58,009 nucleotides of DNA from Pseudomonadota bacterium (lineage in GTDB: Bacteria; Bdellovibrionota; FAC87; UBA2466): assembly GCA_009927165.1 (NCBI GenBank), contig RFNO01000056.1, positions 1 to 58,009 on the forward strand, in the 5' to 3' direction. The notes below the pieces were generated by a model. It saw only the letters and a list, made by a program, of their open reading frames with translations, ran no database searches and had not been told where the DNA came from. This document shows positions 4,835-28,859 of this stretch, piece after piece; within the stretch, counting starts at the first letter, position 1, and every line of letters starts with the position of its first letter. The position numbers and the translations under genes were made by a program.

Positions 4835-5122
4835 ACCCCCCTCAAGCTCTTTCGCTGCCTAAGTTTCCTGTGACAGGAATTGTCCTTAAGTGAATGGGAA
4901 ACCCATTTTAAAAATCTAATCTCTTTTTAAACACTTAGAATGAGCTGTCGACAAATTTGACTGAATCTTGGCTGCACACTGTTTGTTTTAATTTCCTCTG
5001 TTTCAGCCGGATTTTTCAGTGGCCCGCTTCATGCAAATTGCTACCGCAAACCGGCAGAGTGGGTGAGTACCTACTTTGTTACATTTTGTATACGCAGTGA
5101 GAACGTAACTGGAAGTGGAAAT
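4835..5122 (+). promoter_or_regulatory. Long leader with two perfect small palindromes
   Basis: This stretch without a gene holds TTCCTGTGACAGGAA (4865-4879, 6-bp arms, 3-nt centre) and AATGGGAAACCCATT (4893-4907, 6-bp arms, 3-nt loop). From 4961 the reading frame of the downstream gene is already open and would encode a hydrophobic, signal-peptide-like segment, but it has no ATG. It could be a structured 5' UTR or operator region. I recognise no known riboswitch class. Confidence 0.35.
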
Positions 5123-6772
5123 ATGAAAAAATCATTCTTAGGCTCAAAGAAATCTCTAATCGCTCTTGGCATCCTGTTGCCGTTAATCGCGGGAGCTAAT
5201 GAAACTCACAAAACAACTGGAGAAGCTCCGCTACCTGGCGCTAATCCCAGTTTGAATCAGCCACGCTTGAAAGAATCTCACTCTCAGTATGATACTTTTG
5301 CAGAGAAACTCGATAAATGGTTGAAAGAATCCAAAGATGGTAATCCCTCTGCTTTCTTAGTGGAGGATGAGCTTACGGTAAAGCTAAGCCATAACCAACT
5401 GAAGTCCTCTATCGATTCCCTTAAAAAACTTAAGTCTTATCGAGATGCAGTGGATTCACAATGTATCGTTGATGACGGAAGTGCCAAACTTTTGGTTCAA
5501 ACTTTGGATTCCTGCTTAGTGTCTGATGTTCTTTTCCCAGGAGTTAATAAAGCTAAGCTTGATCAAGATCGCTATGCGGTAAGACTCTCTCTGAAAGCGT
5601 TAAATACTTGTCAAAGCGAGCTCAGCGCTTACTTTCAAGAGAAAGAAAAGCGGAGTGATTTGACTGAAAAAGAAGCTTTTAAAGAAGATGCAGTCGCTTT
5701 AAAAGCGCTCAGTACCCTGTTTGAAAACTTTGGTGGAAAAAAAGGAAAAGGAGATGCCCAGATTGTAGAATCGTCTGAGCTCATTAAAGCGTTAAAGAAA
5801 GTAGAGAACAGCAATCTTTGCCAAGTTAAACTGGATAAAGAAGCTACTGCCAACAAAGAAAACTCTTTGCCAGAGCTGACAGGAAGCCCCAAAGACAAAG
5901 CAGATGTCGCGCACAAACCTGGAAGCTCCATTCATGAATTGCCAAAATCAGAGTATGACGAAAAAGTAGAAGAAACGATCGAAGAGGAAGAACAATACAT
6001 TCCTATCAAAGCACAAAAGAAAGAAGTGGCTCCTGAGCCAGTTCCACAACCGGTTCAAAAGCCCGCTCCACAGCCGGTGCAGTATCAACAGCCTGTTTAC
6101 CAACAACCCAAGCCTTATCAACCTGTGCCTTATCAGCCAAAGAACAACTTTGTGCCAGCTGATAAGCCCAGCAACAGCAATAACCCAGCTTTTATTCCGT
6201 CAGCTCCTCCTCCTCGCCGCGGAGTCGTAGGTGGACCTGCTCCAGTGGCAGCGGTCCCTGTCAGACCGTTTCTCGGAGGCGGAGGCTTAGGACTCTCTTT
6301 AGGATTTGGAACTTATAATTCAACAGTCACAGCGCCGCTGTTACCGCCTCCAATGCCTTACATGCCGCCAATGCCCGGACCTATGCCGGTCTACGGTGGA
6401 ATGGGCGGTGGATTAACTGGGGTTTCCTCAAGTCCCCGAGCCTGTTTAGTTTGCAGCTCAACGCCCGTTACTCCCATGCCGACTCTTGGGTTGGGCACAA
6501 TGTTAGCAAGACCTTGTGCGCAATACCGAACAGGCGTGCGACAACCGATTGGTGCTTGCACTCCAAACATGGTGGGTGTGGCAGGAATCAATCCAGGAAT
6601 TTATCAAGTGCCTCGCTATCCAGGCGCTCCCGTTAACCCAGGACCTGGAAGCCCCGCCCCCGTCGTGTATCAACCCACCGTGGGCGGCACGGGTGTAGTT
6701 CCTAATCGAACCACAGTACCTCGAACGGTTCCTGCTTCGAGAACTTCCCTTCGAAGAAGCGGAAGGCGGTAA
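5123..6772 (+). CDS. Exported proline/glutamine- and glycine-rich protein of unknown function
   Basis: The frame opens earlier, but the ATG at 5123 follows GGAAGTGGAA and begins a classic signal peptide (MKKSFLGSKKSLIALGILLPLIAGA). The N-terminal third is helical and charged, with paired cysteines spaced as in a disulfide-stabilised domain. An acidic stretch (VEETIEEEEQ) follows. Then come a low-complexity segment of P-Q-P-V repeats (6030-6150), a glycine/proline-rich segment (6200-6420), four closely spaced cysteines (CLVC...), and an arginine-rich end (SRTSLRRSGRR). The makeup suggests a cell-envelope or surface structural protein, with the proline-rich part spanning periplasm or peptidoglycan. 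No family is recognised. The stop is 1 bp from the end of the convergent patatin-like gene. Confidence 0.65.
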   Translation: MKKSFLGSKKSLIALGILLPLIAGANETHKTTGEAPLPGANPSLNQPRLKESHSQYDTFAEKLDKWLKESKDGNPSAFLVEDELTVKLSHNQLKSSIDSLKKLKSYRDAVDSQCIVDDGSAKLLVQTLDSCLVSDVLFPGVNKAKLDQDRYAVRLSLKALNTCQSELSAYFQEKEKRSDLTEKEAFKEDAVALKALSTLFENFGGKKGKGDAQIVESSELIKALKKVENSNLCQVKLDKEATANKENSLPELTGSPKDKADVAHKPGSSIHELPKSEYDEKVEETIEEEEQYIPIKAQKKEVAPEPVPQPVQKPAPQPVQYQQPVYQQPKPYQPVPYQPKNNFVPADKPSNSNNPAFIPSAPPPRRGVVGGPAPVAAVPVRPFLGGGGLGLSLGFGTYNSTVTAPLLPPPMPYMPPMPGPMPVYGGMGGGLTGVSSSPRACLVCSSTPVTPMPTLGLGTMLARPCAQYRTGVRQPIGACTPNMVGVAGINPGIYQVPRYPGAPVNPGPGSPAPVVYQPTVGGTGVVPNRTTVPRTVPASRTSLRRSGRR

Positions 6773-6773: not shown

Positions 6774-8651
6774 TTACTGACTCCGTCTTTCGATAGGCAT
6801 ACAGCCCGGTCGATAAGATTGTAATTGGGGGATGGTCCGACTCAAAACCGGATCATCCCCGTTTTTTACATAAACGGGCGCATGAAACACTTCACGAGAC
6901 ATCAAAGACAATTCAAATAGTTTAAATTTACCCCAGTTTGTGCACCAAATAGCATCTGCTTCTTTGAGAGATTGATTGAAGGAGCTCTTCGGGTCTTGGA
7001 TATCAAACAGAGACTTTCTGCGTTCATCAGAAATTTTAAAGAGTTTTGCTAGGCCCTCAGCAAACTCATTGTCTTCTGGCCATTCTCGAGTGAGATAAAT
7101 CGTTTTTTCGCAGCCCATGGCTTTCAAGACTTGCGTAGGATGAAGATCCACCCACCCTCCTGCCATATATCCCTCGATGCCTGCCGATTTGAGATCAGGC
7201 GTGCTTTTCAAGGGGGAGATTTTGGCAAGTCCCGGCTCCACAGGGGATCCCAATAAAGCGTCTCTCCATGTTACGGTTCCCAGAGGAGTAAATTTCTGAG
7301 ACTTAACCTCATCGCTGGGTACCCAAGAAGTAAGTACTTTCTTCAAATCCGAATAGCGCCCCCAATAGCCGTAGAGGAGTTCCTGATCAAAATCTAAGTC
7401 AAATTTGATCTTTGCCGTGCGATCCGTCCACTGCTTGAAAGCTGCTTCGAACTGACCTCGAGCAGGATCAGGACGGTTGGTTTCATACAATAAACGATAC
7501 TCTCGCTCAGCCCGTTGAACTTTCGCAATGCCCCCATGAGAAATCACAGACACAGGGATAAGGGCTTTGAGGGCGCCCCCCACGGGATCAAATACGCGAC
7601 TATCCGACAAAATACCCTTATCCGAACGGTAATGTTGGAAGTAGGGTCTCATATACGAAAGAAGTGTTTTCTCGCAAGCATGGCCAGCGGGCGTTTGAAC
7701 GAATTCCGGCCAACTTTTACCAAACGACTCGGTGACACATCGGCTACTCAACATTTGAGCCATTTTATCTTTTGGGTACATGCCACGACCTGCGAAGAAA
7801 TCAGCTACGAAAGCAATTCTTCGTATCAAATTTGAAAAATCGATAATGCCTTCCCGAAAGAGCGTAGAAACATCACTATTATTAAAGTCCAGTGCTTGAA
7901 TAGACCGCATGATTTCCCATCGCTTTTGGGCAGGCAAATCAATGAGGTAATCTTCTACTTCGCCCATCAATTCTTTATTGATGAAATCGGCAAAGGCCAA
8001 AGAGGTGAAATTGAAAAATTTATCTGAGACGATTTTCCAAGCTACTCGATGGATAATTCTGCGCTTAAGCCTCTTAAAAAGTCCACGCACAGGCGGGTGA
8101 AATCCATATTTCAAGAACTCTTCCCCTTGGTTCAGCTCTCCAGCTGAATCGGGTTTACTCATTTCAATTGCCTTTTTTACTTTAGGGTCTTCAAAGAAAA
8201 GTTTGAGGACAGCTTCTGTGGATTTGAGTGAAAAAGAAAGTCGCTGTCTGACTGTTTCCTCATCACACGGATTCTGACCGCAAGACCAAATCAGGGGATT
8301 GATAAGAGCACTCTCGTAAAAGAAAAGAGATACTGAAGAAGAGCTTCCGCCAGCAACGCCATCAATCACTCCAAAGCGCTCTACTATTCCCGCTAGAGAA
8401 GAAAAATGAGCGAGCACTTTGTCTCCATTTCCTCTCAGGGCTGCACACAGTTTTGGTTTTTCAGGAGAGAAGAATGCAGTTTTTTGGGGGGACGTGAGAC
8501 GATCGGCTTGATCCAGAAAACTCCAGTTAAAATCCCGAAGTCCCTGTCCTGAGAGGTCCCGGCTCCCTTTCATACTCTGGCAAGCTGCTCCCCAGACTAA
8601 CACTCCCAAAGAGGAGACAAAAAAGATGTTACGAAACCAGAAACTTTTCAC
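6774..8651 (-). CDS. Patatin-like phospholipase-family lipoprotein (divergent)
   Basis: The ORF extends to a TTG at 8663. The GTG at 8651 is preferred because GGAG lies 6 nt upstream and it gives a clean signal sequence ending GAAC, an imperfect lipobox. Residues about 65-115 (LCAALRGNGDKVLAHFSSLAGIV, then VIDGVAGGSSSS) resemble the patatin oxyanion loop and the G-x-S-x-G nucleophile elbow, with GGSSSS in place of GTSAG. The Asp-Gly-Gly motif of patatins is not evident; a GGWVD segment near the C-terminus may be its counterpart. The assignment is therefore tentative and activity is uncertain. At about 625 residues it is far longer than a minimal patatin domain. It follows the CHASE2 cyclase by a few bases, so it is probably the last gene of that operon and acts at the envelope. 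Confidence 0.55.
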   Translation of the reverse strand: MKSFWFRNIFFVSSLGVLVWGAACQSMKGSRDLSGQGLRDFNWSFLDQADRLTSPQKTAFFSPEKPKLCAALRGNGDKVLAHFSSLAGIVERFGVIDGVAGGSSSSVSLFFYESALINPLIWSCGQNPCDEETVRQRLSFSLKSTEAVLKLFFEDPKVKKAIEMSKPDSAGELNQGEEFLKYGFHPPVRGLFKRLKRRIIHRVAWKIVSDKFFNFTSLAFADFINKELMGEVEDYLIDLPAQKRWEIMRSIQALDFNNSDVSTLFREGIIDFSNLIRRIAFVADFFAGRGMYPKDKMAQMLSSRCVTESFGKSWPEFVQTPAGHACEKTLLSYMRPYFQHYRSDKGILSDSRVFDPVGGALKALIPVSVISHGGIAKVQRAEREYRLLYETNRPDPARGQFEAAFKQWTDRTAKIKFDLDFDQELLYGYWGRYSDLKKVLTSWVPSDEVKSQKFTPLGTVTWRDALLGSPVEPGLAKISPLKSTPDLKSAGIEGYMAGGWVDLHPTQVLKAMGCEKTIYLTREWPEDNEFAEGLAKLFKISDERRKSLFDIQDPKSSFNQSLKEADAIWCTNWGKFKLFELSLMSREVFHAPVYVKNGDDPVLSRTIPQLQSYRPGCMPIERRSQ

Positions 8652-8666
8652 CTGTATCTCCAACCC

Positions 8667-10589
8667 TTAGTTTTTTGATTGTTCTTGTTCGATTTCAAAA
8701 ATTTCAAAGAGGTCAATGGGAGCTGACTTCCCTTTCAAGGTAGTCTTGGCTACCGCTTTATACTGAGGCACCGACTTATCCGCTTTTCGAATCGCATCCA
8801 GAGTGGCTTGGGTAGTAAGAATTGTGGCTCCGAATTCCTTGGTGCAAGACTCAACACGTGAAGCCACATTTACGGAATCCCCAAGCACCGTGTAATTAAA
8901 GCGTTGTTCACTCCCCATATTGCCCACATTCACTACTCCTGTATTGATCCCGATTCCTAATCGAAGATCGAAACCAAATCTCTTTTTGAAATCTACTTTC
9001 TTTTTGTTAAATTCCTTCACCATTTCTTGGGCGGCCATGCAAGCTCGATAAGCGTGGTCGGGCTGTTCTAAAGGCGCCCCAAAGAAAGCCATGAGTGCAT
9101 CGCCAATATATTTATCCACAGTCCCTTGATGCTTAAAAATAACACTGGTCAATACAGTAAATGTTTCATTGAGTACTTGAGTCAGTTCCTGGGGCTCGAG
9201 TTTTTCGCTCAATGCAGTGAAATCCCTGAGATCGCAAAAGAGAGTGGTGATTTCTTTTTTCTCCCCTCCTAGCTTGAGCGAATCGGGGTGGGTCAGTAGA
9301 ATTTTTACCACATCGGGAGCCAAGTATTTAGAGAAAGCATCTTTCAAAAACTGCCTCTGACGAAACTCGTCGTAAAATCTTCCCGAGAGTGTTGATAATG
9401 CAACGAGTGTGATATTTGCATAGAGAAGCGCTGTCGGGCAGAAAATTCCTCGGGGAAACAGAAGATGAAAATCAATCGCATAGGACAATCCGAGAGTAAT
9501 CCAGAAACTCCCCACAATGCCACTTGTGCGCAAGAAGAGAGTTGAGCCAAGAAGTAGGACTGAAAACAGGACGGTGAATACCCACACCGCAACTTTGGGC
9601 TGGATGGGACAATCCTGCCGTAAGATTTGATCGGCAATCGAGGCCTGAATTTCTACTCCGTGAATGGCTCTATCAAATGGCGATACTTGCTCGTCCACTA
9701 GCCCAAATGTGGTAACACCAATAATGGCTGTTTTTCCTTCCAGGGGTAGTTCCACTTCTGCTACTTCTCTATTTCTTTTATTAGGATTTTCCAAGTCACT
9801 CGCCAACTGCATCAGCTCAAGCGCCGAATGCCTAGGAATGGTTCCCGCAGGGCCCAAGTAATCGATTGGTGAGTGTACAACCGTTACAAGGTTTTCAGCG
9901 GGCTGTCCCAGCCTCTGAGAAATCAGTGCGAGCGGCAGAGATGGATAGATGCCATTCGAATCTCTTAAGTAATAATAGGCACTCCGGGCTTGCCCATCAG
10001 GATCTTTGGTGGAATTTCCAAATCCCTGGTTGGGAACATGAATGGAAAACATTTTATGGTTCAGTTCTGGATTCTCAAATTGCCAAATATCTTCTTTGGG
10101 AAAAGCAGGAGAAACCTTATGGGGGGGTAATTTTTCAGTTTTCTCACCAGAACATGTTTTTCCGCACAGGTCAAGAGTCCACCAAGATAACGTAATAGAA
10201 TCCCTATGTGCTTTAAGGGTACTGGCAAATTCTCGATCGAGATTATTATCAGCGACATTGATTTCTATAAATCCGATGTCATACCCCACATTTTTAATGC
10301 CCAGTTTAAAGAGCGACTCTGTGAGAAGCGAAATAGCGTTTCGTTTCCAGGGCCAATGCCCCAATGCCTCAATGGACGGTCTATCAATGGCCACCACAAT
10401 CACTTCGCCAGAAGCTTTCTTGGGCCCCCTCACTCGAAATTTCAGATCGCTTAACAACGCATCAAATCGGTCGACGGCAGTGAAGTCAGTGGAATCTTTT
10501 TTGGGAAAAGCGTAGAGGCACAAAAGCACCAGGCCCACGAGCTGAAATAAGAGAAATTTGCGTTGTTTCGTTTTCAAAAGAGTTCCCAA
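8667..10589 (-). CDS. CHASE2-domain class III adenylate cyclase, membrane bound
   Basis: The order is an N-terminal membrane segment (12-28), an extracytoplasmic CHASE2 sensor domain (about 33-325, with VVVAIDRPSIEALGHWPW), three membrane helices (about 332-400), then a class III nucleotide cyclase domain (about 445-625). The metal-binding aspartates are present (FCDLRDF Asp453, GDALM Asp497), as are the transition-state residues Asn574 and Arg578 (VNVASR). The base-selecting positions are Lys493 (VDKYIGD) and Thr567 (NYTVLGD), the pattern of adenylate rather than guanylate cyclases. It should make cAMP in response to a periplasmic cue. The start is TTG without an obvious ribosome site. It sits downstream of FecR and lipoprotein genes and upstream of the patatin-like gene. 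Confidence 0.93.
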   Translation of the reverse strand: MGTLLKTKQRKFLLFQLVGLVLLCLYAFPKKDSTDFTAVDRFDALLSDLKFRVRGPKKASGEVIVVAIDRPSIEALGHWPWKRNAISLLTESLFKLGIKNVGYDIGFIEINVADNNLDREFASTLKAHRDSITLSWWTLDLCGKTCSGEKTEKLPPHKVSPAFPKEDIWQFENPELNHKMFSIHVPNQGFGNSTKDPDGQARSAYYYLRDSNGIYPSLPLALISQRLGQPAENLVTVVHSPIDYLGPAGTIPRHSALELMQLASDLENPNKRNREVAEVELPLEGKTAIIGVTTFGLVDEQVSPFDRAIHGVEIQASIADQILRQDCPIQPKVAVWVFTVLFSVLLLGSTLFLRTSGIVGSFWITLGLSYAIDFHLLFPRGIFCPTALLYANITLVALSTLSGRFYDEFRQRQFLKDAFSKYLAPDVVKILLTHPDSLKLGGEKKEITTLFCDLRDFTALSEKLEPQELTQVLNETFTVLTSVIFKHQGTVDKYIGDALMAFFGAPLEQPDHAYRACMAAQEMVKEFNKKKVDFKKRFGFDLRLGIGINTGVVNVGNMGSEQRFNYTVLGDSVNVASRVESCTKEFGATILTTQATLDAIRKADKSVPQYKAVAKTTLKGKSAPIDLFEIFEIEQEQSKN

Positions 10590-10673
10590 ATTTAAAAAGA
10601 CTAAGTCACAACACGTTTCGGAATTTTTTGAGAGGATCTAGAGGCTGAGAAAAGCTTTTTTTGGGTTGCTGCG

Positions 10674-11465
10674 TTAATGAGTGGGAGGGGGGGCTGGATT
10701 TTCTTCTTCGGATGGGGGATTCGAACGAGCTATCGTGATTGGACTGCTTTCACGCCCCGAACTCGTCAGTCCTTGAGCATTCACCGCTGCTACTTCAAAT
10801 CGGTAGGTCCCGGGGGCTAAATTAGGATAGGTGTACGAAGTACCCGAGTAGGAGATCGGCGAACTCTTGGGCTCGGAGTCCTTCTGATATCTAATCCGGT
10901 AGGTATTAGCCTCTGGCACTTCGTCCCAGTTCAAAGTTACATTGACTAGGTCACCTAGAGAAGCATTTAGGGCATTGGGAGCGGTCACCGATGAGACTGT
11001 TTCTGCGCCCTCTCTAAAATCCTCCGGCACTGTTATCACAACAGCTCCCTCTGCTTTTTGGGGAAGGCGCACGGTTGTCCGTCCCAGCTGAGCCCATCCT
11101 TCTTTTAAGGGCAGTTCTCTGGGGCACGGAGATTTCAGAACCCCCTCACCTGTTAAAGTGCTTTGAATGCCAATCACAGTAAACGTGTAAGGATAGCCCC
11201 CCAAAAGATTAGCCGTTCTAAACGTTAGCGACAGGGAAGAAGAATCAACCCCCCTTAAAGGCTGCCAAGAAGAAACTTGAATGCCATCTCCCCCGGAGTA
11301 ACTTAAACAGGCGTAACCGTAATGGTGCATTTTGTTGAATTTTTCTTCACTGATGGATTCGACTGAAGACTCAAACAGCACAGTGCTTTGCGAACTTTCA
11401 TTGTGAAACGAACAGCTTTGTAAAAACACTGCAAACCAAACCAATAGTAAAGCTCTTACGGTCAT
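10674..11465 (-). CDS. Lipoprotein with shared N-terminal domain and C-terminal fibronectin type III domain
   Basis: The signal peptide ends in a proper lipobox, LQSC (Cys18). Residues 25-135 are a domain shared with the lipoproteins at 12809 and 15457. Common marks are an (S)STV-x-F start, a Y-x-(Y/W)-A-C cysteine, a Y-T-(F/V) strand, and, with the 12809 protein, WAQLGR after a C-P motif. Residues about 155-250 form a fibronectin type III domain (VTLNWDEVPEANTYRIRY ... TYRFEVAAVNAQG). The C-terminus is a proline-rich tail. The stop lies 84 bp before the CHASE2 start, and the start is 16 bp from the FecR gene upstream, so FecR and lipoprotein are co-transcribed. A surface or periplasmic binding role is inferred. 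Confidence 0.75.
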   Translation of the reverse strand: MTVRALLLVWFAVFLQSCSFHNESSQSTVLFESSVESISEEKFNKMHHYGYACLSYSGGDGIQVSSWQPLRGVDSSSLSLTFRTANLLGGYPYTFTVIGIQSTLTGEGVLKSPCPRELPLKEGWAQLGRTTVRLPQKAEGAVVITVPEDFREGAETVSSVTAPNALNASLGDLVNVTLNWDEVPEANTYRIRYQKDSEPKSSPISYSGTSYTYPNLAPGTYRFEVAAVNAQGLTSSGRESSPITIARSNPPSEEENPAPPPTH

Positions 11466-11481
11466 AGCGTCCTCACTGATT

Positions 11482-12732
11482 TCAATCCGACTTCTTCACT
11501 CCCCAATGAACTATCACGGGAACAGAAACGGGAATGGGGTTATTAAAAAAACTACTCCCTGGCAGCACACTTCCTGGAAGCACTCCGGAACTGGTTGGGG
11601 CAGTTGCAACGACTGCTTGGTCTGGGGCTCGAGCGGGTTCGGATGGGGGAATCGATACTGAAGAAGGGGTCGGTTCGGTTTTTCCAACGGGTCTTTCTGA
11701 AGTTGGCTGTACCGTATTAGATTCAATCGATTCAGAAGCCACTTCCCGGGAAGGTTCCGTTTTTTGGGCAGGCGTCTCGATATCATCCGCATTAGACAGT
11801 TCTCTTGCCGAACGGCTCGTACCCGATTCCGCGGAAGGAAGAGCTACGTTAAAAGCACTGGCCCTTTTTTCGAGTGAAGGGGCCTGCAAAGTAGCGGAAA
11901 TAAACTGGGCCACTTTTTCGCTTTTGGCAGGTTGAGAAGTTTCCTCTCGTTTTGCGGTGGTGGGTTGCTCTTGAGCTGGAGCTGCAGTCTCAGACTGCTT
12001 GGCTTCTTTTCCAGTACCGGAATCCGTTGATAAGTCCACTGACTTTTCAAAGACTTTTTCTTCGGTTTTTGTCTTTTGTTCGAATTGCCGTTGCTCGTCT
12101 GCAGTAAATTGATCGAGCTTGGGCGGTGCAGAAGCTTCTACTTTCAGTTCACCCGTTTCAGTTCGCTCTACTCGCCCCTCGGCACGAAACTCGGTACCGG
12201 AGCTAATGGCAACCGGTTTGAAACTATCGTCAAATAAAGATTTCACTTCCACTCGGCCTTCAGTCACCCCAACTTGTTCGGAAACTTGACCGTCGGCATT
12301 TTGCTGCCAGCTCATAAAAAACTCAGTCCCTCGGACAGCAAGAATCGAAGTGAGCGTCTTTACTTTAAACTCTTGGCGTTTAGCTCGAGCCGCTTTGTTG
12401 ACTACGGCTCTGAGTTCACCATTTTCCAATTCCAAATTGATTCGAGTGGCCCAGTTTTTGCCTTCACAGGAGGCAATCCGAAGTCGTGACGAGGATCCCA
12501 TATCGATAATGGAATCATCTCTCAGCACCAGTTTTAACAAACTGGTGGGTCCCGTTTGTACTTGAGTACCCTGATTGAGAGTTTGGCCTATCTTAAGAGA
12601 AACTCCCTCTTGAGTGGTTGCGATTCCGAGTACTACTGCCACTTTTGCGCAAGGCTCAACGGCATGGGCACTCCAAGAAATAAAAAGGAAAACCAATAAA
12701 ACAAAGGAAGAAGTAGGATGAGATTGGATCAT
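11482..12732 (-). CDS. FecR-domain exported protein (paralogue A)
   Basis: A signal peptide (1-24) is followed by a FecR-type domain (about 48-150) with KIGQTLNQGTQVQTG, LKLVLRDDSIIDMGSSSRL and TSILAVRGTEFFMSW. The last two are the hallmark strands of these periplasmic beta-rich domains. From about residue 200 there is a KLDQFTADEQRQFEQKT motif, nearly identical in the paralogue at 17400, and then a long low-complexity Ser/Pro/Glu/Thr-rich region ending in a short hydrophobic tail. There is no FecI-type sigma factor or TonB receptor nearby, so this is not the classical iron-citrate set-up. It is followed by a lipoprotein gene, as is its paralogue. Confidence 0.88.
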   Translation of the reverse strand: MIQSHPTSSFVLLVFLFISWSAHAVEPCAKVAVVLGIATTQEGVSLKIGQTLNQGTQVQTGPTSLLKLVLRDDSIIDMGSSSRLRIASCEGKNWATRINLELENGELRAVVNKAARAKRQEFKVKTLTSILAVRGTEFFMSWQQNADGQVSEQVGVTEGRVEVKSLFDDSFKPVAISSGTEFRAEGRVERTETGELKVEASAPPKLDQFTADEQRQFEQKTKTEEKVFEKSVDLSTDSGTGKEAKQSETAAPAQEQPTTAKREETSQPAKSEKVAQFISATLQAPSLEKRASAFNVALPSAESGTSRSARELSNADDIETPAQKTEPSREVASESIESNTVQPTSERPVGKTEPTPSSVSIPPSEPARAPDQAVVATAPTSSGVLPGSVLPGSSFFNNPIPVSVPVIVHWGVKKSD

Positions 12733-12808
12733 GCCGTAAGTTTACTATTATCCACCTGATTCGCAAACTCGCAATGCGACAAGTTAAAAACCCGACAAAA
12801 GCTCTGAT

Positions 12809-15424
12809 TTAACTCTCCGGGAGGACACAGCGGACTTGATACTCATTTAAGGTGATCGCCCCATACTGAAGCAAAAAAGGTTCATGGATCCAGTAAGCAA
12901 CTCCAATTGTTCCAGCATTGTAACTGGTAGCGGTCCATATCGTGCCAGTGTTGGTTGGAACTCCAGACCCGTTTTGCCCTGGAAAAGTAGGACCTGGACT
13001 TAAGTGAGTTGGCAGTGCCAGGCTTGGTTTAGCCAAATTCAGCTCGTATAAAACGGGAAGTCTCATCCCTAAAACGTTGCAGGTTTTGATATTTCCAGCA
13101 AACCAGACTGCCTGACCGAAACTCTGGTACCAGTTGCCCAGCCAATCCACCCACTTCACCCCAGAAGAGCTACCCGCATCGATTTTTTGAGCGGTAAACC
13201 GGGGGGTATAATAAATCCATTTACCGGAACTAAAAGGAGAGGTTCCATCCAAATAAACGTTGGGCGGATTGGCCCTGTCTTTTATGCGTTGCCAATCCGT
13301 GAAATAACTCGAGGAAAAGCCTGTTTTGCCATCAGGATTAAGTTTTTTCTGCCATCCATCTGTTGTTCCACTGAGCCAAAGTCCAGATGCGGGCAGAATT
13401 TTGTCTTCATTCTTTTTTTTCCAAATCCTAAAGGTATAATGGGGGATCGTTGCATATTCGATGACATCCCCACTGGCAACGCAAGCAAATCCAGCTGTTT
13501 TGGCGGTTTGATCATCATAACAACTATTGGAAACAGTATCGCCACAGAGTTTGTAGGAACACTGCGGAATAGTCTTGGAAAAACAACCGGTTTCATTGCC
13601 TACACCATCTTTAAATTTGTAGTATACCGTCGCTAGAGCATTGGTTTGTGCGGACGACAGTGTCCATGACTTCGTCGAGGCTAAGTTCTCCCAATTTCCT
13701 CCGCTCAAACACCCCGAAGTATTCGTAATGTACATTTGAACTGGCCCATTGGGATCCGTAGCCGAAATACCGGTTAGCTGAACGCTCGTTGAATTTACAA
13801 AAGTGGAACCATTATTGACTGTTAGATTGGGATCGCTTGGCGGGAGATTATCAAACAAAATGGTATCGGAAACACAGTCACTAGCGACAGCCCCATTGAA
13901 GAATTGAGCATAAACCGTTCGGGTGCCGTTAGTTGAATTAATCGGCCAAGAAGAAGAAGCTGTGGGAGCAGTAATGTTAGAAGAACAACTACAGTTTTGA
14001 TCGGAAAAACAGACCGAAGAGTTACCGCTATAATTAATGGTGATATTCAACGGTGAGTTGTTGGTTGAATTGGCATCATTATTAATTTTAATAGAAGGCG
14101 GTACCGTCGGGACCACCAAAGGTGGATTGGTGGTCACACAGGATGATTCGTTACCCACATCATCTCGAAATTTTGCATAAACAACGGCAGAGGTTCCTAA
14201 AAAAACCGGATTCCATTGCTTAGTTCCCCTAAATGACTCCCATTCGGTCCCAGTACTGCAATCCATTTCAGTATTAGCAATGAACATGTCTGCCGTATCC
14301 GTGGACGATGAAGACAAGTGAAGAGTAGCGATTCCTGCACTATAAGATCCAAAAGAGACAGTATTTCCAGAGGGAGGGTCTCCATCAATGAGCACTGAAA
14401 TCGCATTTCCGCTGGAAGAAGGATTTCCCAGGGCCACTAATTTATTTCCAGCCTGATCGCGGGCGATTGAATCGGGATGTAAACCGAGAGTTACTGTCCC
14501 AGTACCCGTAGGCGTAATCGTTACCAAAAAATCTTTTTCATTACCCTCCACTTGGGAAACAGTGGCACGTGTTGCCTGAAGGCTAGAGACTGTAAAATCA
14601 AAGATGGGTTCACTAAACGTAAGAGCAATCGTAAGTGGACTGTTCTTAACTTTGACAGGAGCTCCCACAGCACTAACCGTCGGGGCAGTGCTATCCAACT
14701 CAATAGCGTCCGTCACACAAGTGAAATCAGAGCTGCCGCTCTTTCCAAATTTTGCCGAAAGACTTTTCATTCCATCGCCTGATGCTAAAGGGACAGAAGG
14801 TAAGAAGGACTGAAATGAACTGCCTAAATCCGAAAGAGGTGTCCCCGAGCAATCAGAAGTAGGATAGAGGATCATTTGATCTGCATCCTTGGCCGCCAGC
14901 TTGAGACTAACCGTCGAACTTTTCGTGTAAGTATCCCCGTTATTAATTAAAATGCTCGCAATCGACTCGTAAAAAACCACCGGAATTCTCGGAGTACCTG
15001 GTTTGGGTCCCGCCCAGTAATCAACTCGCCCCAGCTGGGCCCATAAGATCCCAGCAGGATCTGAAGCTGGGCAAGAAAAGCTGTCCTCGGGTTCATCTGT
15101 AAAACCGAGAATACGCACCGTATATTTTTGATTCACCGCCAACGGAGGAGTTCTAAACTCCACGAACAATTGATCGGAAGCTCTGTTGACTTCTTCAATA
15201 GATGACCCGTAAACCAATCGCCCATCTTGCTGAATAATGGAAATACAGGCCCATGGGTATTGGCTTAATCGAGAAAACTCACTGGCTGTTACCGAGGAAA
15301 AATCGGTTGCTCCCGCCACTGCCGAAGCACCAAAGCGCACGGTACTTTGCAACGTTGAGCTTCTCATCGAACAACCCAGCAGAGTCGCAAAAAAAACTAA
15401 TAAACAAATGCGAACCTTTAGCAT
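12809..15424 (-). CDS. Large lipoprotein: shared N-terminal domain, Ig-like domains, C-terminal Lcl/DUF1566-like domain
   Basis: The signal peptide has lipobox LLGC (Cys18). Residues 27-135 are the N-terminal domain shared with the lipoproteins at 10674 and 15457 (STVRFGASAV, PWACISI, WAQLGRVDY). A Big_12-type bacterial Ig-like domain follows (about 245-340, TIALTFSEPIFDFTVSSLQATRATV to DQAGNKL). Then come several repeats with a paired-cysteine and FRDDVGNESSCV / FKDGVGNETGC pattern. The last 180 residues (WQKKLNPDGKTG, then NIKTCNVLGMRLPVLYE, to YQVRCVLPES) resemble Lcl/DUF1566-type C-terminal domains, and are matched by the fragment at 57608. The modular layout suggests a surface adhesin or ligand-binding lipoprotein. 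It lies 32 bp downstream of the propeller lipoprotein. Confidence 0.75.
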   Translation of the reverse strand: MLKVRICLLVFFATLLGCSMRSSTLQSTVRFGASAVAGATDFSSVTASEFSRLSQYPWACISIIQQDGRLVYGSSIEEVNRASDQLFVEFRTPPLAVNQKYTVRILGFTDEPEDSFSCPASDPAGILWAQLGRVDYWAGPKPGTPRIPVVFYESIASILINNGDTYTKSSTVSLKLAAKDADQMILYPTSDCSGTPLSDLGSSFQSFLPSVPLASGDGMKSLSAKFGKSGSSDFTCVTDAIELDSTAPTVSAVGAPVKVKNSPLTIALTFSEPIFDFTVSSLQATRATVSQVEGNEKDFLVTITPTGTGTVTLGLHPDSIARDQAGNKLVALGNPSSSGNAISVLIDGDPPSGNTVSFGSYSAGIATLHLSSSSTDTADMFIANTEMDCSTGTEWESFRGTKQWNPVFLGTSAVVYAKFRDDVGNESSCVTTNPPLVVPTVPPSIKINNDANSTNNSPLNITINYSGNSSVCFSDQNCSCSSNITAPTASSSWPINSTNGTRTVYAQFFNGAVASDCVSDTILFDNLPPSDPNLTVNNGSTFVNSTSVQLTGISATDPNGPVQMYITNTSGCLSGGNWENLASTKSWTLSSAQTNALATVYYKFKDGVGNETGCFSKTIPQCSYKLCGDTVSNSCYDDQTAKTAGFACVASGDVIEYATIPHYTFRIWKKKNEDKILPASGLWLSGTTDGWQKKLNPDGKTGFSSSYFTDWQRIKDRANPPNVYLDGTSPFSSGKWIYYTPRFTAQKIDAGSSSGVKWVDWLGNWYQSFGQAVWFAGNIKTCNVLGMRLPVLYELNLAKPSLALPTHLSPGPTFPGQNGSGVPTNTGTIWTATSYNAGTIGVAYWIHEPFLLQYGAITLNEYQVRCVLPES

Positions 15425-15456
15425 CTATTCTCCTCTATTCTCCTCGACTTGCCTCC

Positions 15457-17403
15457 TCACTCCCCTACCTGAGCGTATTCGAACACATAGGCTGCGCCGG
15501 AGTTCTTGCTGGTGGGGGCGGTGACATTAAAACCTGGTTCTTTCCAAAAAATACGATTGCTGGATACTCCTTCTACATTGGTATCATCCTGAGGAACTCC
15601 AACTACGATGGTATTTTGGTAAATGGCGACGCGCTTTCCAAAACTCGGATTAGTAGAACTACTATTAGGGGCCTTGAGGTAGGCCGCTCTTTTCCAAGAA
15701 CCCGAATCCTCTTTTCCAAACACGTAAACCCCGCCGATACCTGTAACTGCAGGATCAGGAGGATTTGTCGGCATCGTTCCATTAACAATCACAGTAGAAT
15801 TCGATCTCTCTAGTGGCGCTCCTATAACGACTTTCCCTTCATGAATCGCTACGGAGGTACCAAACACACCATATTCGTCTAAATTAGGAGCTTTGAGATA
15901 AGCGTCTACGACCCAACCGCTACGGGATGAATCGTATTTAAAGATATAGGCAGCGCCTCTTCCTTCAGGGGCACCGGGACTGGGACTGGGACCCCCGGCT
16001 AAGCTAGTTTGGACGTTGGGAGCATTAAACTCCACCGGTGCGGAGTTATTGTTTTCGCCCCTCGCCCCCACTACCAAAACATCGTTACCAGATCGGTCAA
16101 ACGCCACTGAGTAGCCAAATGTTTGTTTCTGATTGAAATGGGGTACATTTAAATAAGCTGTATTTGTCCAAGTCCCAACTAATTCCTCAAATACGTAAAC
16201 GCCTCCGACTTCAGAGTGTGTCGTGGGGGGAGCTGTATATGTGCTTAGATCATTGATAATCCCCTGTTCCTCGTAGCTTTGCGAGGGGGCCCCCACCGCT
16301 ATTCGACCCCCAACAATACTTACGGAAAACCCAAACTGGTCTCCAAGCTGAAGAGGCAACTGAGGTGAAGGTACTATCGGGGCAGGGGTCCAAACCGTGC
16401 CACTTTTCTTAAAAACATAAGCGCTGCCTTTGCCACCTTCTTCGCCGGGAGCTCCGACCACGATGGTGTCTCCATCAATACTCACCGATGTTCCAAACTC
16501 GCCGTTGATTGTAGGATCGGGAGAAATCAATGGGGTTACCGTGGGTCCCGCCCACGAACTCCCGTTTTTTTCAAACACCCAAACCGCTCCCGCCCTTGAC
16601 TTCCCATTCACTTTGCTAGCCAAAGCCCCAACGACGATGGTATCGCCGGAAATTCCCAGTGAATCCCCGAACAGATTAAAATCCGGGCCAGGTGAAGTTG
16701 TTGTGTCCAGAGGAGGCGTAAGCGTCGATGGGTATTCCCACTGGTCCGTACGAGAGTTTTTTTCATAAACGAGAACCACTCCTCTTTTACTCGTAGAAAC
16801 ATCGGGATTACATCCAGGCACTCCCACGATCATGGTTGTTCCATCAATCGCAACTGACCTACCCATATCTTTATCAGTAGTTACGGCGGCGTAACATGGG
16901 ACTGCACTGTCCTTCTTCACATACGTGGTCCAGTGCCAGCCCGTAAACTCCGAAATAAGGGGCACTTCCCCGGGCCGCTGGGGAATTTCGTAGGTTCCGT
17001 GGGCAATTTCCTGCTTGATGATTCCTTTACTCTCGTTCGTCGCACACCCTATTTCTTTGCTCGGCAAACCATAGAGGTGCAGCGTATAGGTATTCCCCAC
17101 TTTTAATCTCGGCAAGGAAAACTGAGCCGAGATTTCAGACATACTTTTTTGGAGAGGCAACCCCTCGGTGGCTCCTATTTTTTGTTTGTCGTCTTCATCA
17201 AAAATTTCCACACAAGCGTAATCGTACTGGTAAACATGTGCCAAATACGGAGCTGAAACTTGATCGAAGTCTCGTTGAGGAACAGAATGGGTAATCGCAA
17301 ATCTTACCTGGCTTGAACGAAGAGACGAATCCAGCGAACACCCCGAACCCCCAAGCCAAATCAAAACTCCCCAGAAAACCCACCGAACTAAACCTAGTTT
17401 CAC
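15457..17403 (-). CDS. Lipoprotein-like protein with seven FG-GAP-type repeats (predicted 7-bladed propeller)
   Basis: The frame reaches a GTG at 17421. The GTG at 17403 is preferred because it overlaps the FecR stop as GTGA, lies about 9 nt after GGGGAG, and gives a basic, hydrophobic leader ending GGSGC (Cys22), an imperfect lipobox. Residues 30-135 are the shared N-terminal domain (SSQVRFA, YDYACVEI). Residues about 180-648 contain seven repeats, each with an FG-x-S-V-x-(I/F)-x-G-x-x-(I/V)-V-V-G-(A/V) strand pair, and each followed by G-(A/G/V)-x-(Y/W/L)-(V/I)-(F/Y)-(E/K/G). Seven integrin-alpha-like blades would close one beta-propeller. It is translationally coupled to FecR paralogue B and probably sits at the outer membrane or surface. 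Confidence 0.8.
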   Translation of the reverse strand: MKLGLVRWVFWGVLIWLGGSGCSLDSSLRSSQVRFAITHSVPQRDFDQVSAPYLAHVYQYDYACVEIFDEDDKQKIGATEGLPLQKSMSEISAQFSLPRLKVGNTYTLHLYGLPSKEIGCATNESKGIIKQEIAHGTYEIPQRPGEVPLISEFTGWHWTTYVKKDSAVPCYAAVTTDKDMGRSVAIDGTTMIVGVPGCNPDVSTSKRGVVLVYEKNSRTDQWEYPSTLTPPLDTTTSPGPDFNLFGDSLGISGDTIVVGALASKVNGKSRAGAVWVFEKNGSSWAGPTVTPLISPDPTINGEFGTSVSIDGDTIVVGAPGEEGGKGSAYVFKKSGTVWTPAPIVPSPQLPLQLGDQFGFSVSIVGGRIAVGAPSQSYEEQGIINDLSTYTAPPTTHSEVGGVYVFEELVGTWTNTAYLNVPHFNQKQTFGYSVAFDRSGNDVLVVGARGENNNSAPVEFNAPNVQTSLAGGPSPSPGAPEGRGAAYIFKYDSSRSGWVVDAYLKAPNLDEYGVFGTSVAIHEGKVVIGAPLERSNSTVIVNGTMPTNPPDPAVTGIGGVYVFGKEDSGSWKRAAYLKAPNSSSTNPSFGKRVAIYQNTIVVGVPQDDTNVEGVSSNRIFWKEPGFNVTAPTSKNSGAAYVFEYAQVGE

Positions 17404-18386
17404 GGTGCTTTTACTCCCCACACAAAAGTGGCTGAAACGATATTAGGAAAACCCGGCTGGTTGATTTGTCCGCTCCCGGGAGCATCGAGTCCTGATAACA
17501 CACCAGCTCCTCCAGGCGCTTGGGCATTGACCCGACCAATAGCTTTTTTGAACCTGGGTCCACGACCTTCTTCTGAAGAATCACTCTCGCTGGAAAGCCC
17601 TCTTCCCGATTCTTTCGTGGCAGCAGCTAAGAAATTATCGGTCTTTTTATTTTCGTTTTTTGCTTCTGAGTCCGAACTTTTTCCCGTAGGAATCTCCACT
17701 GCCTTTTCAAACGCTTGATTATCCGCTTTGGTGTTTTGCTCAAACTGCCGTTGCTCATCTGCAGTAAACTGATCCACTTTTGGAGCTCCGGCTGCTTCGA
17801 CTTTGATTTGCCCAGCGACTTCCGAAACTTTTCCCATAGCCTGAAACTCAGTTCCTGTTCCCACCATCGTCCCCGGACTCATCGAATCGAACAATGACTT
17901 CACTTCCACTAATCCCTCAGACACGCCAATGTTTTCTCTCACTTGCCCACCACTTCCTTGTTCCCAGCTCACAAAAAACTCCGTTCCTCTCACGGCTAAA
18001 ATTGATGTGGGAGTTTTTAATTTAAATTCTTCTCGAGTTACTTTGGGCGCCTTATTCACATTGGCTCGAATTTTTCCTGTTTCAAGCTGCAAATTGATTT
18101 TACTGACCCATCCCTGTCCTTCACAGGCCGTAATCACAAAACGAGAGGACGAGCCAATATCAACTACGGAATCATCTTTTAAGATAATTTTTAAAAGCGT
18201 TGAAGGTCCTGTTACAATCCGGCTACCCGCCCCGAGATTCTGGCCCGTGCGAAGGGTTTCACCTTTGTCATTCGTAGCTTTTCCAATCACAATCGCCACT
18301 CTCGCGCAAGTCTGTGGCTCTGCGGCTTTTACAGCCGTGGTGATTACCAACACTAATCCCCAAACAAGATGCATAAAGGTAGTCAT
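17400..18386 (-). CDS. FecR-domain exported protein (paralogue B)
   Basis: The frame opens with TTG at 18392, but the ATG two codons later (18386) is preferred and starts the signal peptide (MTTFMHLVWGLVLVITTAVKA). The FecR-type domain has LRTGQNLGAGSRIVTG, LKIILKDDSVVDIGSSSRF and TSILAVRGTEFFVSWEQG, aligning throughout with paralogue A at 11482. It also carries the shared KVDQFTADEQRQFEQNT motif near residue 195. The C-terminal part is shorter and less repetitive than in A. It is the first gene of the leftward locus and divergent from the TPR-barrel protein, with about 60 bp of AT-rich DNA between them. Its stop overlaps the start of the propeller lipoprotein. Confidence 0.88.
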   Translation of the reverse strand: MTTFMHLVWGLVLVITTAVKAAEPQTCARVAIVIGKATNDKGETLRTGQNLGAGSRIVTGPSTLLKIILKDDSVVDIGSSSRFVITACEGQGWVSKINLQLETGKIRANVNKAPKVTREEFKLKTPTSILAVRGTEFFVSWEQGSGGQVRENIGVSEGLVEVKSLFDSMSPGTMVGTGTEFQAMGKVSEVAGQIKVEAAGAPKVDQFTADEQRQFEQNTKADNQAFEKAVEIPTGKSSDSEAKNENKKTDNFLAAATKESGRGLSSESDSSEEGRGPRFKKAIGRVNAQAPGGAGVLSGLDAPGSGQINQPGFPNIVSATFVWGVKAP

Positions 18387-18413
18387 TGCCAAATACTTTA
18401 TCTTTTATAGAAT
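18386..18413 (+). promoter_or_regulatory. Candidate promoter for the TPR-barrel gene in the divergent spacer
   Basis: TTGCCA (18386-18391) and TAGAAT (18408-18413) are spaced 16 bp apart. The -35 box overlaps the first codons of the divergent FecR gene. On the other strand TTGTCA, 17 bp, then TAAAGT is a weaker match for the leftward locus. The two would share about 55 bp, so both sides may be co-regulated. Confidence 0.4.
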
Positions 18414-18447
18414 TTTATGACAAATCTTTATAACAAAGGGGATTTCC

Positions 18448-20001
18448 TTGAGACTACTTGCGTTATTTTTTTGTTTCGTTGCGTCACTGGCATTGGCGAG
18501 TTTACCTGCTGAAGAAGAAGCAACGTTTGCGAAAGCTTCTTTAGCGTTTCAAGAGGGAAATACCCAAGAAGCCCATCAGCACTTAGACCGCCTCCTCAAA
18601 AAATATCCGCAGGAACCTCAAGTGTTAGAGCTCAAAGCGCTCGTTCAAAAATCGAGTGGAGAATTGGAAAGCTCCAAACAAATTTATCTCAAGCTCTTTC
18701 AAGCAGCTAAAGACAAAAAAGACCGAAAGAAAATGGCCATGTACGCTTTTGAGTTGGGCAATATTCTTTACAGCCAAGGGGACTTGGACAACGCCCATCG
18801 CTACTTACGCACTTCCGTTAAAGGCAACTTCAACGTTGAAGCCAGTGAATTTTTGTTAGGCAAAATCGATTTGGAACAAAACCACTGGTTTGAAAGTCGC
18901 GAACACTTCGAAGCCGCTTCCCAAGCAGAAGCTTTTCACTCTGCTTCTAAGCTCTATATTGCTCAGGCCTACAGCAAAGAAAACAGAGTCACAGATGCTC
19001 TCGGTGCTTATGTCGACGCTAAAGAAGCCGCCCAAGCCGACGTCGCAAGCGGTGAAACCCTCAGCGAACAATCCCGCTTTCTTGCCCAGCAAGTGTTGAA
19101 AAACTCTGAACAAGAACTTCGTTCCTACAGCAAAAGTGACTGGATTAAAGAAGTAGGAATTGCCACTGCTTATGACTCCAATGTTCTCTTCATGCCTAAT
19201 TCTTCTGACGCCAATCTCACTTCCACCACAGGCTCAGTGAAACAATCGGCCACTTGGCGACTTCGTTACGCTTCAGATCCCACTGAGCGGTGGCAGTACT
19301 TGGGGGCTTATCAAGGTTCCATTAACTACAATTTCAATCAGGATACTCAGGGTGGACAGTTTTTAGTGCAGGACTTATCCAACTACATCACTCGCGGATT
19401 TTTAAAATCTACCCAATATGGCTTCAAATTAGGCGGAACGGGAATCATGCAGTATCAAACCGATGCCTATAAACCATTCAGTCTTTCCGGAACCGTGGGC
19501 CCGTTTGTAAAAACACAAGTCAACGACGATTGGTCTTTTGGAGCAGAAGCGTTCTTTCAACCTGTCCGAAATTTCTTAGACCCCAATCTCAGTGAATCCG
19601 CTCAGCGCTCGGGATTTGATCAAGTTGTGCGCACTTACGCGGCCAGTCGCCGAAATGATCCTTACTGGAAACCCTCAGTATTTATGACCGGCACGGTGAT
19701 GCGGCCCTCAGGATCTGATTTTTCGGGAGTGCGACTCAACTTAGATTTGGCCAACGCCATGTATCTCTCGCCTACTCTTTTTGTGGCTCAGACTTTGGGA
19801 ATTTCCGTTGCCCGCTATCCCGACCGGTCTAATGGACAACGAGATGATCAAGGATTTTCTGCGTCCCTCTCGGGAGGCTACCAAATGTCCCAAGCATTGG
19901 CTTTAATGGCTCAAATGGACTACGGGCAGAACTTTTCTAACGATGCAAACTTCCGCTATAATCGCTGGAGCGCAACGGTCTCTGGAAACTACCGTTTCTA
20001 A
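18448..20001 (+). CDS. TPR-repeat outer-membrane beta-barrel protein
   Basis: It starts with TTG after AAAGGGGAT. The signal peptide (1-18) is followed by TPR-like helical repeats to about residue 225 (ASLAFQEGNTQEAHQHLDRLLKKYPQEP, AFELGNILYSQGDLDNAHRYL). Residues 230-517 are rich in alternating aromatic/hydrophobic strands and end in NYRF. A terminal Phe is the usual outer-membrane barrel insertion signal. The architecture recalls Slam-type surface-lipoprotein exporters and TPR-porins such as PgaA, though no specific family motif is certain. It lies divergently next to FecR and three lipoproteins, so a role in assembling, displaying or sensing with those lipoproteins is a reasonable inference. 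Confidence 0.75.
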   Translation: MRLLALFFCFVASLALASLPAEEEATFAKASLAFQEGNTQEAHQHLDRLLKKYPQEPQVLELKALVQKSSGELESSKQIYLKLFQAAKDKKDRKKMAMYAFELGNILYSQGDLDNAHRYLRTSVKGNFNVEASEFLLGKIDLEQNHWFESREHFEAASQAEAFHSASKLYIAQAYSKENRVTDALGAYVDAKEAAQADVASGETLSEQSRFLAQQVLKNSEQELRSYSKSDWIKEVGIATAYDSNVLFMPNSSDANLTSTTGSVKQSATWRLRYASDPTERWQYLGAYQGSINYNFNQDTQGGQFLVQDLSNYITRGFLKSTQYGFKLGGTGIMQYQTDAYKPFSLSGTVGPFVKTQVNDDWSFGAEAFFQPVRNFLDPNLSESAQRSGFDQVVRTYAASRRNDPYWKPSVFMTGTVMRPSGSDFSGVRLNLDLANAMYLSPTLFVAQTLGISVARYPDRSNGQRDDQGFSASLSGGYQMSQALALMAQMDYGQNFSNDANFRYNRWSATVSGNYRF

Positions 20002-20042: not shown

Positions 20043-20318
20043 ATGAAACCATTCATAGTTACCCTAGTTGCTTTAAACTTTTTAGGAGCGGCAGTCAGTT
20101 TCGCTGACGACAAAGCTAAAACTGAAAAATTTGAAAGCCACAAAGCGGAAGCTCTTAAGCGCATTGAGGAAAACATGGGGAAGATGGCTGAGCACAAGGC
20201 CTGTGTGACAGCAGCCACCAAGCCCGAAGAAATGAAAGCTTGCCGTGACAAAATGAAAGAATGGCACAAAGCTCACAAGAAAGAGCGTGGCCATCACGAA
20301 GACGATCACCACGAGTAA
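20043..20318 (+). CDS. Small exported charged protein, His-rich tail
   Basis: The ribosome site GAAGGAG precedes the ATG. A signal peptide (MKPFIVTLVALNFLGAAVSFA) leads to a mature protein of about 70 residues, highly charged and helical, with two cysteines (KACVTAATKPEEMKACRD) that could form one disulfide, and a tail rich in His, Asp and Glu (HHEDDHHE) that could bind metal ions. No family is named with confidence. It lies 41 bp after the TPR-barrel gene, probably in the same transcript, and is followed at once by a strong terminator. Confidence 0.65.
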   Translation: MKPFIVTLVALNFLGAAVSFADDKAKTEKFESHKAEALKRIEENMGKMAEHKACVTAATKPEEMKACRDKMKEWHKAHKKERGHHEDDHHE

Positions 20319-20326: not shown

Positions 20327-20365
20327 AAAAACCCCGCTGACTTTTTGAGTCAGTGGGGTTTTTTT
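20327..20365. terminator. Bidirectional rho-independent terminator
   Basis: A 12-bp stem (ACCCCGCTGACT / AGTCAGTGGGGT, one G-T pair) with a 5-nt loop is flanked by A and T tracts, so it can stop transcription from both sides. The stop codon of the convergent BCCT gene sits inside the T-tract. Confidence 0.92.
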
Positions 20366-24563: not shown

Positions 24564-25361
24564 TTAATGAGTTCTGCCGTAACGAATTTGTCTTAAATAA
24601 TCGGTGCTCGTCACATTCGGCTCTAAAGCATATCCATAAAGCGCAATGAGACGTAACTTTTCCCCTTGGATTTCTGTTACTCGATGAATAGTGTAACGGC
24701 CTTCAAAAAGCACTAAACACCCAGGCGGATTGTGCAGTTCCTCAACATTTTTTCGACTGCCTTGAAGCAGATTTCGAACATCATCGTAACAAGGGTCATT
24801 TTTGGAACGAATATTTCTCACGTACTCAAATTTGCCCCCCTTAACCGGATCCTGAAGATTGACGGAAACCACAAAATCACTCTGATCAAAATGCCAGCGC
24901 AAATAATCTTGATCTTTCATGACCGCAACATTGATTGCTCCTAGCGGACAAGCGTATTCGTAAAGCGGACCTCGTCCGATGATTTTACCAACGAAATCAA
25001 CAAAGTTTTTCCATTGGTAAATTTTTCGGAGTCCACTTTCGTTGGGAATCTGATCGTAAGCAAGCACGCCGAGCGCCGTGCGATCTTCTAATCGCATGGG
25101 ATGATGGCTCGGCAGATCTTTCGGAATTTCTTCCAAATAAGCATTTCCATGGACAGTGTTGTGGTAGCACTCACTGGCTTTTTGCTCAGATTCCGCCACG
25201 AGCTCCTGCAAACCGGCTGGAGAAAGAAACTCAGGGAGCACGCAGACGCCTTCTTCGCGCATCTGCTTTTGAAAAGCAGCTAACATTTCCTGAGTCCGCG
25301 GACTCTCGGGCTGATGAAGAGGATAGCGTTCTAAATTCAGAAAATATTCTACTGAGCGCAT
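24564..25361 (-). CDS. Fe(II)/2-oxoglutarate-dependent oxygenase
   Basis: A cupin-fold oxygenase of 265 residues. The metal triad is visible: His157-x-Asp159 (RWHFDQSDF) and His226 (GRYTIHRVT), followed by Arg237 (KLRLIALYGY), the likely 2-oxoglutarate anchor. The spacing and the W-H-F-D context resemble the group related to BesD/HalD amino-acid halogenases and hydroxylases. An Asp in place of the halogenase Gly predicts hydroxylation, not halogenation; this family match is from memory and tentative. It is the first gene of the operon, with a perfect AAGGAGGA ribosome site. Its promoter region carries overlapping palindromes. The product likely feeds the lyase next to it. Confidence 0.82.
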   Translation of the reverse strand: MRSVEYFLNLERYPLHQPESPRTQEMLAAFQKQMREEGVCVLPEFLSPAGLQELVAESEQKASECYHNTVHGNAYLEEIPKDLPSHHPMRLEDRTALGVLAYDQIPNESGLRKIYQWKNFVDFVGKIIGRGPLYEYACPLGAINVAVMKDQDYLRWHFDQSDFVVSVNLQDPVKGGKFEYVRNIRSKNDPCYDDVRNLLQGSRKNVEELHNPPGCLVLFEGRYTIHRVTEIQGEKLRLIALYGYALEPNVTSTDYLRQIRYGRTH

Positions 25362-25393
25362 CGAGTCCTCCTTGAGTTGGCCATCAAAATATC

Positions 25394-25434: not shown

Positions 25435-25509
25435 GCTGCGGTTTTTGTCACTCGCCAGGCCCGGCCCCCACAGGGTCGTATAATTTTTATTACTTGTAAA
25501 ATCAGGGAC

Positions 25510-28798: not shown

Positions 28799-28859
28799 TG
28801 GCTAAGCTTTCTCCTAAAGAAAACCAAACGAGTCAAGCAGGTTTACTAGAACTCCTCAT

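Follow-up and report, generated by a model that had tools for sequence, protein, structure and literature searches.

A split FecR, TPR-barrel and CHASE2 cyclase locus with lipoproteins: a probable envelope-to-cAMP sensor of the NsrA–CyaK type

Contig RFNO01000056.1 (assembly GCA_009927165.1) comes from a bacterium of the Bdellovibrionota lineage UBA2466, and its 58,009 nucleotides (nt), read as the forward strand, are referred to here as the window. Between positions 8667 and 20001, the window encodes two FecR-domain proteins, three lipoproteins, a CHASE2 class III adenylate cyclase and, divergently, a tetratricopeptide repeat (TPR) protein with an outer-membrane β-barrel. We propose that the locus is probably a split, lipoprotein-equipped version of the envelope-to-cyclic AMP (cAMP) sensor represented by NsrA and CyaK of Sinorhizobium meliloti, a nitrogen-fixing symbiont of plants. 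At the level of sequence, the compartments, the domains, the linkage of the genes and the intactness of the cyclase are established. The system is not new in kind, as the general NsrA–CyaK design is known; its novelty lies in the split layout and in the lipoproteins. In the parts available to us, the literature on CHASE2 together with FecR describes no split, lipoprotein-equipped layout, and among the systems of such a design that we found, NsrA–CyaK alone has been studied experimentally.

Organization of the locus

The genes of the locus are as follows.

18448..20001, plus strand: TPR and outer-membrane β-barrel protein (Pfam TPR, AlphaFold2 model)
17400..18392, minus strand: FecR-domain periplasmic protein 2, FecR 2 (Pfam PF04773, E=2e-12)
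15457..17421, minus strand: lipoprotein 3, shared N-domain and FG-GAP repeat (β-propeller-like) passenger (FG-GAP_2, N-domain profile)
12809..15424, minus strand: lipoprotein 2, shared N-domain, Big_12 Ig-like domain and a C-terminal domain (Pfam, N-domain profile)
11482..12732, minus strand: FecR-domain periplasmic protein 1, FecR 1 (Pfam PF04773, E=7e-13)
10674..11465, minus strand: lipoprotein 1, shared N-domain and fn3 domain (fn3, E=2e-7)
8667..10589, minus strand: CHASE2 class III adenylate cyclase, CyaK-like (Pfam CHASE2, 7e-33; Guanylate_cyc, 2e-25)

The leftward order is FecR 2, lipoprotein 3, lipoprotein 2, FecR 1, lipoprotein 1, the cyclase and a patatin-like gene. The genes are tightly spaced. 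FecR 2 and lipoprotein 3 overlap by 22 nt, and the gaps that follow are 32 nt (lipoprotein 3 to lipoprotein 2), 76 nt (lipoprotein 2 to FecR 1), 16 nt (FecR 1 to lipoprotein 1), 84 nt (lipoprotein 1 to the cyclase) and 3 nt (the cyclase to the patatin-like gene). The TPR-barrel gene is divergent from the FecR 2 gene, with 55 nt between them. A preliminary description of this DNA had reported the gene run, the places of its members and the divergence, and all were confirmed, as were the pairing of two FecR paralogues (49% identical), the N-terminal domain common to the three lipoproteins (by profile) and the TPR and β-barrel protein ending in Phe.

A cyclase and receptor design shared with NsrA–CyaK

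The catalytic residues attributed to the cyclase in the preliminary description are all present: Asp453, Lys493, Asp497, Asp571, Asn574 and Arg578. By their roles in class III cyclases, Asp453 and Asp497 bind metal, Lys493 and Asp571 specify the purine, and Asn574 and Arg578 stabilize the transition state. The protein is 31% identical to S. meliloti CyaK over about 600 residues, nearly the whole length (E=1e-58). In a tblastn search of plasmids, the top matches were Sinorhizobium/Ensifer cyclases, annotated as cyaK wherever the gene is named. The S. meliloti cyaK gene product likewise has CHASE2 and cyclase domains. On pSymB of S. meliloti R28, a gene overlapping cyaK encodes a 1190-residue protein with a FecR domain (66–160, 1.8e-15), TPRs (about 420–590, 8e-13) and a C-terminal barrel region. 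From the position of its gene directly before cyaK, this protein is identified as NsrA.

According to PMC7529298, signalling needs outer-membrane NsrA and the inner-membrane cyclase CyaK, NsrA being the receptor whose signal CyaK converts to cAMP. The same paper places the NsrA barrel at residues 600–1200, which is consistent with the 1190-residue protein. PMC13001267 states that Sinorhizobium CHASE2 cyclases respond through NsrA. The window locus and NsrA–CyaK thus have in common FecR, TPR and β-barrel domains and a CHASE2 class III cyclase with intact catalytic residues, all in one cluster. They differ in that NsrA is a single fused chain whereas the FecR and TPR-barrel proteins of the window are separate and on divergent genes, in that two FecRs and three lipoproteins are encoded in the window, and in that the barrels belong to different families, with no profile match between them. 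Given this difference in the barrel, the locus is NsrA-like in design and is not an NsrA orthologue.

Two further arrangements are related in part. Campylobacterota clusters hold genes for a CHASE2 cyclase, a phosphodiesterase, a FecR outer-membrane protein and a TPR protein, for which one pathway has been proposed (PMC9239204). The cyclase, FecR and TPR protein kinds are clustered there as in the window, whereas in the window no phosphodiesterase was seen, and lipoproteins and a TPR-barrel fusion are present. In the BiofilmReg operon of Burkholderia, a LysM-FecR gene lies beside that of a CHASE2 histidine kinase (PMC5192318). Here, too, a periplasmic FecR protein is encoded next to a CHASE2 sensor; unlike the window locus, the operon has kinase and response regulator output and lacks an outer-membrane barrel. 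The same paper reports what CHASE2 domains sense as unknown.

A second class III cyclase is encoded on a different contig of the window's genome. That genome's only other CHASE2 protein is a CHASE2 histidine kinase (L002, G000:C48:21171-21977; G and L numbers denote genomes and loci of a comparison set of 59 genomes that includes the window's own). The gene before that of the kinase encodes a small outer-membrane-like protein. G001 and G012 contain this pair as well, with a response-regulator-like gene behind it.

Conservation of the locus

The check put forward in the preliminary description, a search for co-occurrence in relatives, came out in favor of linkage. Of the 33 other genomes with both FecR and CHASE2 genes, 10 have them within 8 kb of each other, where chance would give about 1.2. 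All nine full-length relatives of the TPR-barrel outside the window (G011, two in G002, two in G004, G047, G027, G056 and G052) are encoded divergently from a FecR gene. The same divergence from FecR holds for a tenth relative, in G005, which is truncated by the end of its contig.

In five genera of another family of the same phylum, FecR, a TPR outer-membrane protein (TPR-OMP) and a CHASE2 cyclase are encoded consecutively on one strand (L069, L070, L072, L073 and L074). Pfam gives weak TPR matches for the two middle proteins submitted. By hhalign, the window TPR-barrel matches along its full length TPR-OMPs of other families whose genes are linked with those of FecR and CHASE2: the profile from these five genera at E=6e-14 (462 columns), with a second match at E=3e-10 (399 columns). 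A search with a narrower TPR-barrel alignment returned only the two nearest relatives. In G055, a lipoprotein gene and CHASE2 are on one strand and TPR-OMP and FecR on the opposite one, with a second lipoprotein gene alongside. In G011 and G002, the cyclase is still linked despite rearrangement. That is, order and strand vary while the linkage persists, and we therefore argue for a functional unit. In the window, G002, G009 and G055, the gene immediately upstream of the CHASE2 cyclase gene encodes a lipoprotein.

The G002 locus contains two tandem TPR-barrel/FecR/lipoprotein modules followed by the CHASE2 cyclase and a patatin-like gene, with flanking genes as in the window. Since the window has a single TPR-barrel gene for its two FecRs, it has probably lost one TPR-barrel.

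The FecR proteins

The 2.47 Mb assembly has no FecR domains other than those of FecR 1 and FecR 2. FecR 2 consists of a signal peptide, the FecR domain, a flexible linker and a β-strand-like C-terminal tail (VSATFVWGVKAP); the corresponding tail of FecR 1 is VPVIVHWGVKKSD. Visual inspection of 17 aligned FecRs shows a short strand-like segment of this kind at the end of 16 of them; the seventeenth is extended by about 180 barrel-like residues. By a crude alternation score, 41% of the FecR tails are high-scoring, versus 12.5% of other C-termini, a partial separation. It is tempting to suggest that the tail could dock on the TPR groove or on the barrel. A search for relatives of FecR 2 in named genomes found none, and a profile search of the PDB with FecR gave nothing useful. 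At L075 (8601-9980, G007), a FecR protein carries an additional C-terminal segment of about 180 residues resembling a small β-barrel, another FecR-OMP fusion.

The TPR-barrel protein

Pfam finds TPRs in the window protein at E=3e-10. In the AlphaFold2 model (four sequences; mean predicted local distance difference test score, pLDDT, 73), TPR helices extend to about residue 233 and are followed by 13 modelled strands; a low-confidence stretch at 235–264 likely holds one further strand. The model suggests that residues of about 21–233 form a TPR domain, likely periplasmic, and that residues of about 235–517 likely form a β-barrel of 14 strands. A YDSN motif stands where the barrel begins, and the C-terminal residue is Phe. 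A Foldseek search with the model ranked mostly TPR proteins and did not place the barrel.

The lipoproteins

The three lipoproteins have in common an N-terminal domain of about 130 residues, and their downstream parts differ. Lipoprotein 3 has seven FG-GAP_2 stretches (Pfam, E=5e-45), and the C-terminal domain of lipoprotein 2 also occurs in lipoproteins of G002 and G009. Across the 59 genomes, the N-domain model identified five convincing copies: the window has three, and G002 and G011 have one each. All of them adjoin a FecR of this type. As the model itself derives from these copies, the test concerns further ones elsewhere, of which there were none beyond two marginal short hits. The AlphaFold2 model of lipoprotein 1 has two β-rich domains (mean pLDDT 67). 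With it, Foldseek returned fn3 pairs at low TM-scores and matched the N-domain to no known fold. In other families, unrelated-looking lipoproteins occupy the equivalent place at FecR/TPR loci. Their homology to the window N-domain was not demonstrable, although the layout is similar.

Proposed mechanism

Our proposal is as follows. The TPR-barrel and a soluble periplasmic FecR are two proteins from back-to-back genes, and the cyclase gene belongs to what is probably the FecR operon. The barrel would be inserted in the outer membrane and its TPR domain would project into the periplasm, as sequence and model suggest. The lipoproteins, with a dedicated N-domain and changeable Ig-, fn3- or propeller-type passengers, would join the barrel at the outer membrane and supply specificity. 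FecR would bind the TPR domain or the barrel, perhaps through its C-terminal strand, and carry the state of the receptor across the periplasm, where it would contact the CHASE2 domain and alter cyclase activity. We infer that FecR connects the TPR-barrel with CHASE2, since it forms the N-terminal fused part in NsrA and its gene is the one tied most closely to both partners. The cAMP may then act through one of the three Crp-like proteins encoded in the genome. The core of the system would be the TPR-barrel and FecR, with the lipoprotein and the cyclase as frequent partners.

Several observations weigh against this proposal. Six TPR-barrel/FecR loci (two in G004 and one each in G027, G047, G052 and G056) have no CHASE2 gene nearby, and the genomes concerned each carry CHASE2 proteins elsewhere. 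It is because of these six loci that we regard FecR and the TPR-barrel as the core and the cyclase as an optional partner. Between the NsrA barrel and that of the window, no homology is detectable (hhalign probability 0.1%). An internal TGA interrupts one of the TPR genes of G002, and an internal TAG the cyclase gene of G009; therefore, some copies may be decaying. Finally, G001 also has three Crp-like genes, two of the three families being sequence-confirmed, yet it has no class III cyclase. The envelope-to-cAMP reading in the preliminary description holds in large part, through the co-occurrence of the genes and the NsrA–CyaK precedent, with two corrections: the cyclase is an optional partner, and the patatin-like gene is outside the unit (see below).

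A more specific form of the proposal is that of a modular receptor. That is, interchangeable surface lipoproteins, through their dedicated N-domain, would give the TPR-barrel its ligand specificity, free FecR would relay to CHASE2, and one cyclase would read several duplicated receptor modules. This we put forward tentatively, as a possibility rather than an expectation.

Should FecR prove to be a subunit that couples TPR-barrels of the outer membrane to CHASE2 cyclases in general, the widespread orphan FecR and CHASE2 proteins would gain a testable role. The interfaces of the split version, with its soluble FecR, are easier to test than those of fused NsrA.

Alternative explanations

The TPR-barrel and FecR might instead be mainly a device for export or assembly of surface lipoproteins, in the manner of Slam, with the N-domain lipoproteins as cargo and the cyclase a later add-on or a reporter of cargo assembly. 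The Slam/DUF560 family of type XI secretion system (TXISS) exporters combines a 14-stranded barrel with TPRs (PMC8406197), and the window protein resembles it in its TPRs, its approximately 14 strands and its location near lipoprotein genes. In seven of the nine testable TPR-barrel loci, four of them without a linked cyclase, the gene directly behind FecR encodes a lipoprotein, and the N-domain is dedicated to these loci. TPR_Slam matches occur in six of nine aligned TPR-barrels (best E=1e-4), the window protein scoring 19 bits, below the cut-off of 35.2. Other evidence speaks against export. The SlipAM/DUF560 barrel is absent from the families listed for the window protein and from the 25 commonest families of the nine members (E up to 5), and membership in the Slam/PgaA kind, which the preliminary description had invoked, is not borne out. 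The putative cargo is unrelated to that of Slam, and FecR is always present. In the lipoproteins, Pfam finds only fn3, Big_12 and FG-GAP_2, with no C-terminal 8-strand barrel of the TbpB type, and the five FecR-TPR-OMP-CHASE2 triples have no lipoprotein gene between their members. We consider the export explanation rather doubtful.

FecR, the TPR-barrel and the lipoproteins could also form an envelope structure, an adhesin or scaffold, with the CHASE2 cyclase sensing a ligand of its own and the neighborhood reflecting shared regulation only. The best NCBIfam matches of FecR are the Leptospira surface proteins LipL45 and Lsa33, all far below the cut-off, and the loci without a cyclase fit such a role. 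The recurrence of CHASE2–FecR linkage in different orders and families and the genetics of NsrA–CyaK argue the other way and make this explanation unlikely.

In Pfam scans of genes at 456-27500 and 29586-31517, which excluded the aldehyde dehydrogenase-like gene at 21884-23395, open reading frames (ORFs) at 28190-29586 and ORFs beyond 31.5 kb, no FecI or TonB gene was found, bearing out the preliminary description for the genes in or beside the run. Classical iron-type signalling, in which FecR is an anti-sigma regulator coupled to a TonB receptor, accounts for the Pfam FecR match and is highly improbable, given that both FecRs start with a signal peptide and have neither a cytoplasmic anti-sigma part nor an inner-membrane anchor, and that no sigma factor or TonB receptor is encoded among the genes scanned around them.

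Flanking genes

The genes at the two ends of the locus are as follows.

6774..8663, minus strand: patatin-like (weak evidence) lipoprotein, judged to be a neighbor and not a conserved part of the unit
20043..20318, plus strand: small secreted protein, 91 residues, behind the TPR-barrel gene; homologue at the same place in G002

The patatin-like lipoprotein had been described as part of the run, and its position 3 nt behind the cyclase holds. Its relationship to patatins, judged from the sequence, is weak: the product has no Pfam match, its best PDB match, patatin-like PlpD, is non-significant (E=0.6), though it has conserved GGSS and GGW-x-DLHP motifs. In G001, which belongs to the same genus, the orthologue (65% identity) adjoins four genes that are likewise the left-hand neighbors of the window gene, and no FecR, TPR-barrel or class III cyclase was found in that genome. 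We therefore regard the patatin-like gene as an inherited neighbor and, on this synteny, dropped it as a member of the unit. The gene at 5063-6772, which adjoins the patatin-like gene in both genomes checked, the window's and G001, encodes a secreted protein that has a long Pro-rich half and matches no Pfam family.

The 91-residue protein contains two cysteines, and its tail is rich in His. Scans for promoters and terminators gave no more than shuffled sequence did, except for a strong terminator-like stem at 20327-20363, directly past its gene, which is probably on the TPR-barrel transcript. An Rfam scan gave no match.

Beyond the stem, at 20364-28123, is a group of genes whose products are a BCCT transporter, an aldehyde dehydrogenase-like protein, a Lyase_1 enzyme and a HalD-like enzyme of the 2-oxoglutarate halogenase/hydroxylase family. 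The HalD-like enzyme is unexpected. Glycosyltransferase, acyltransferase and carotenoid genes lie past this group, in an arrangement that is conserved in G002.

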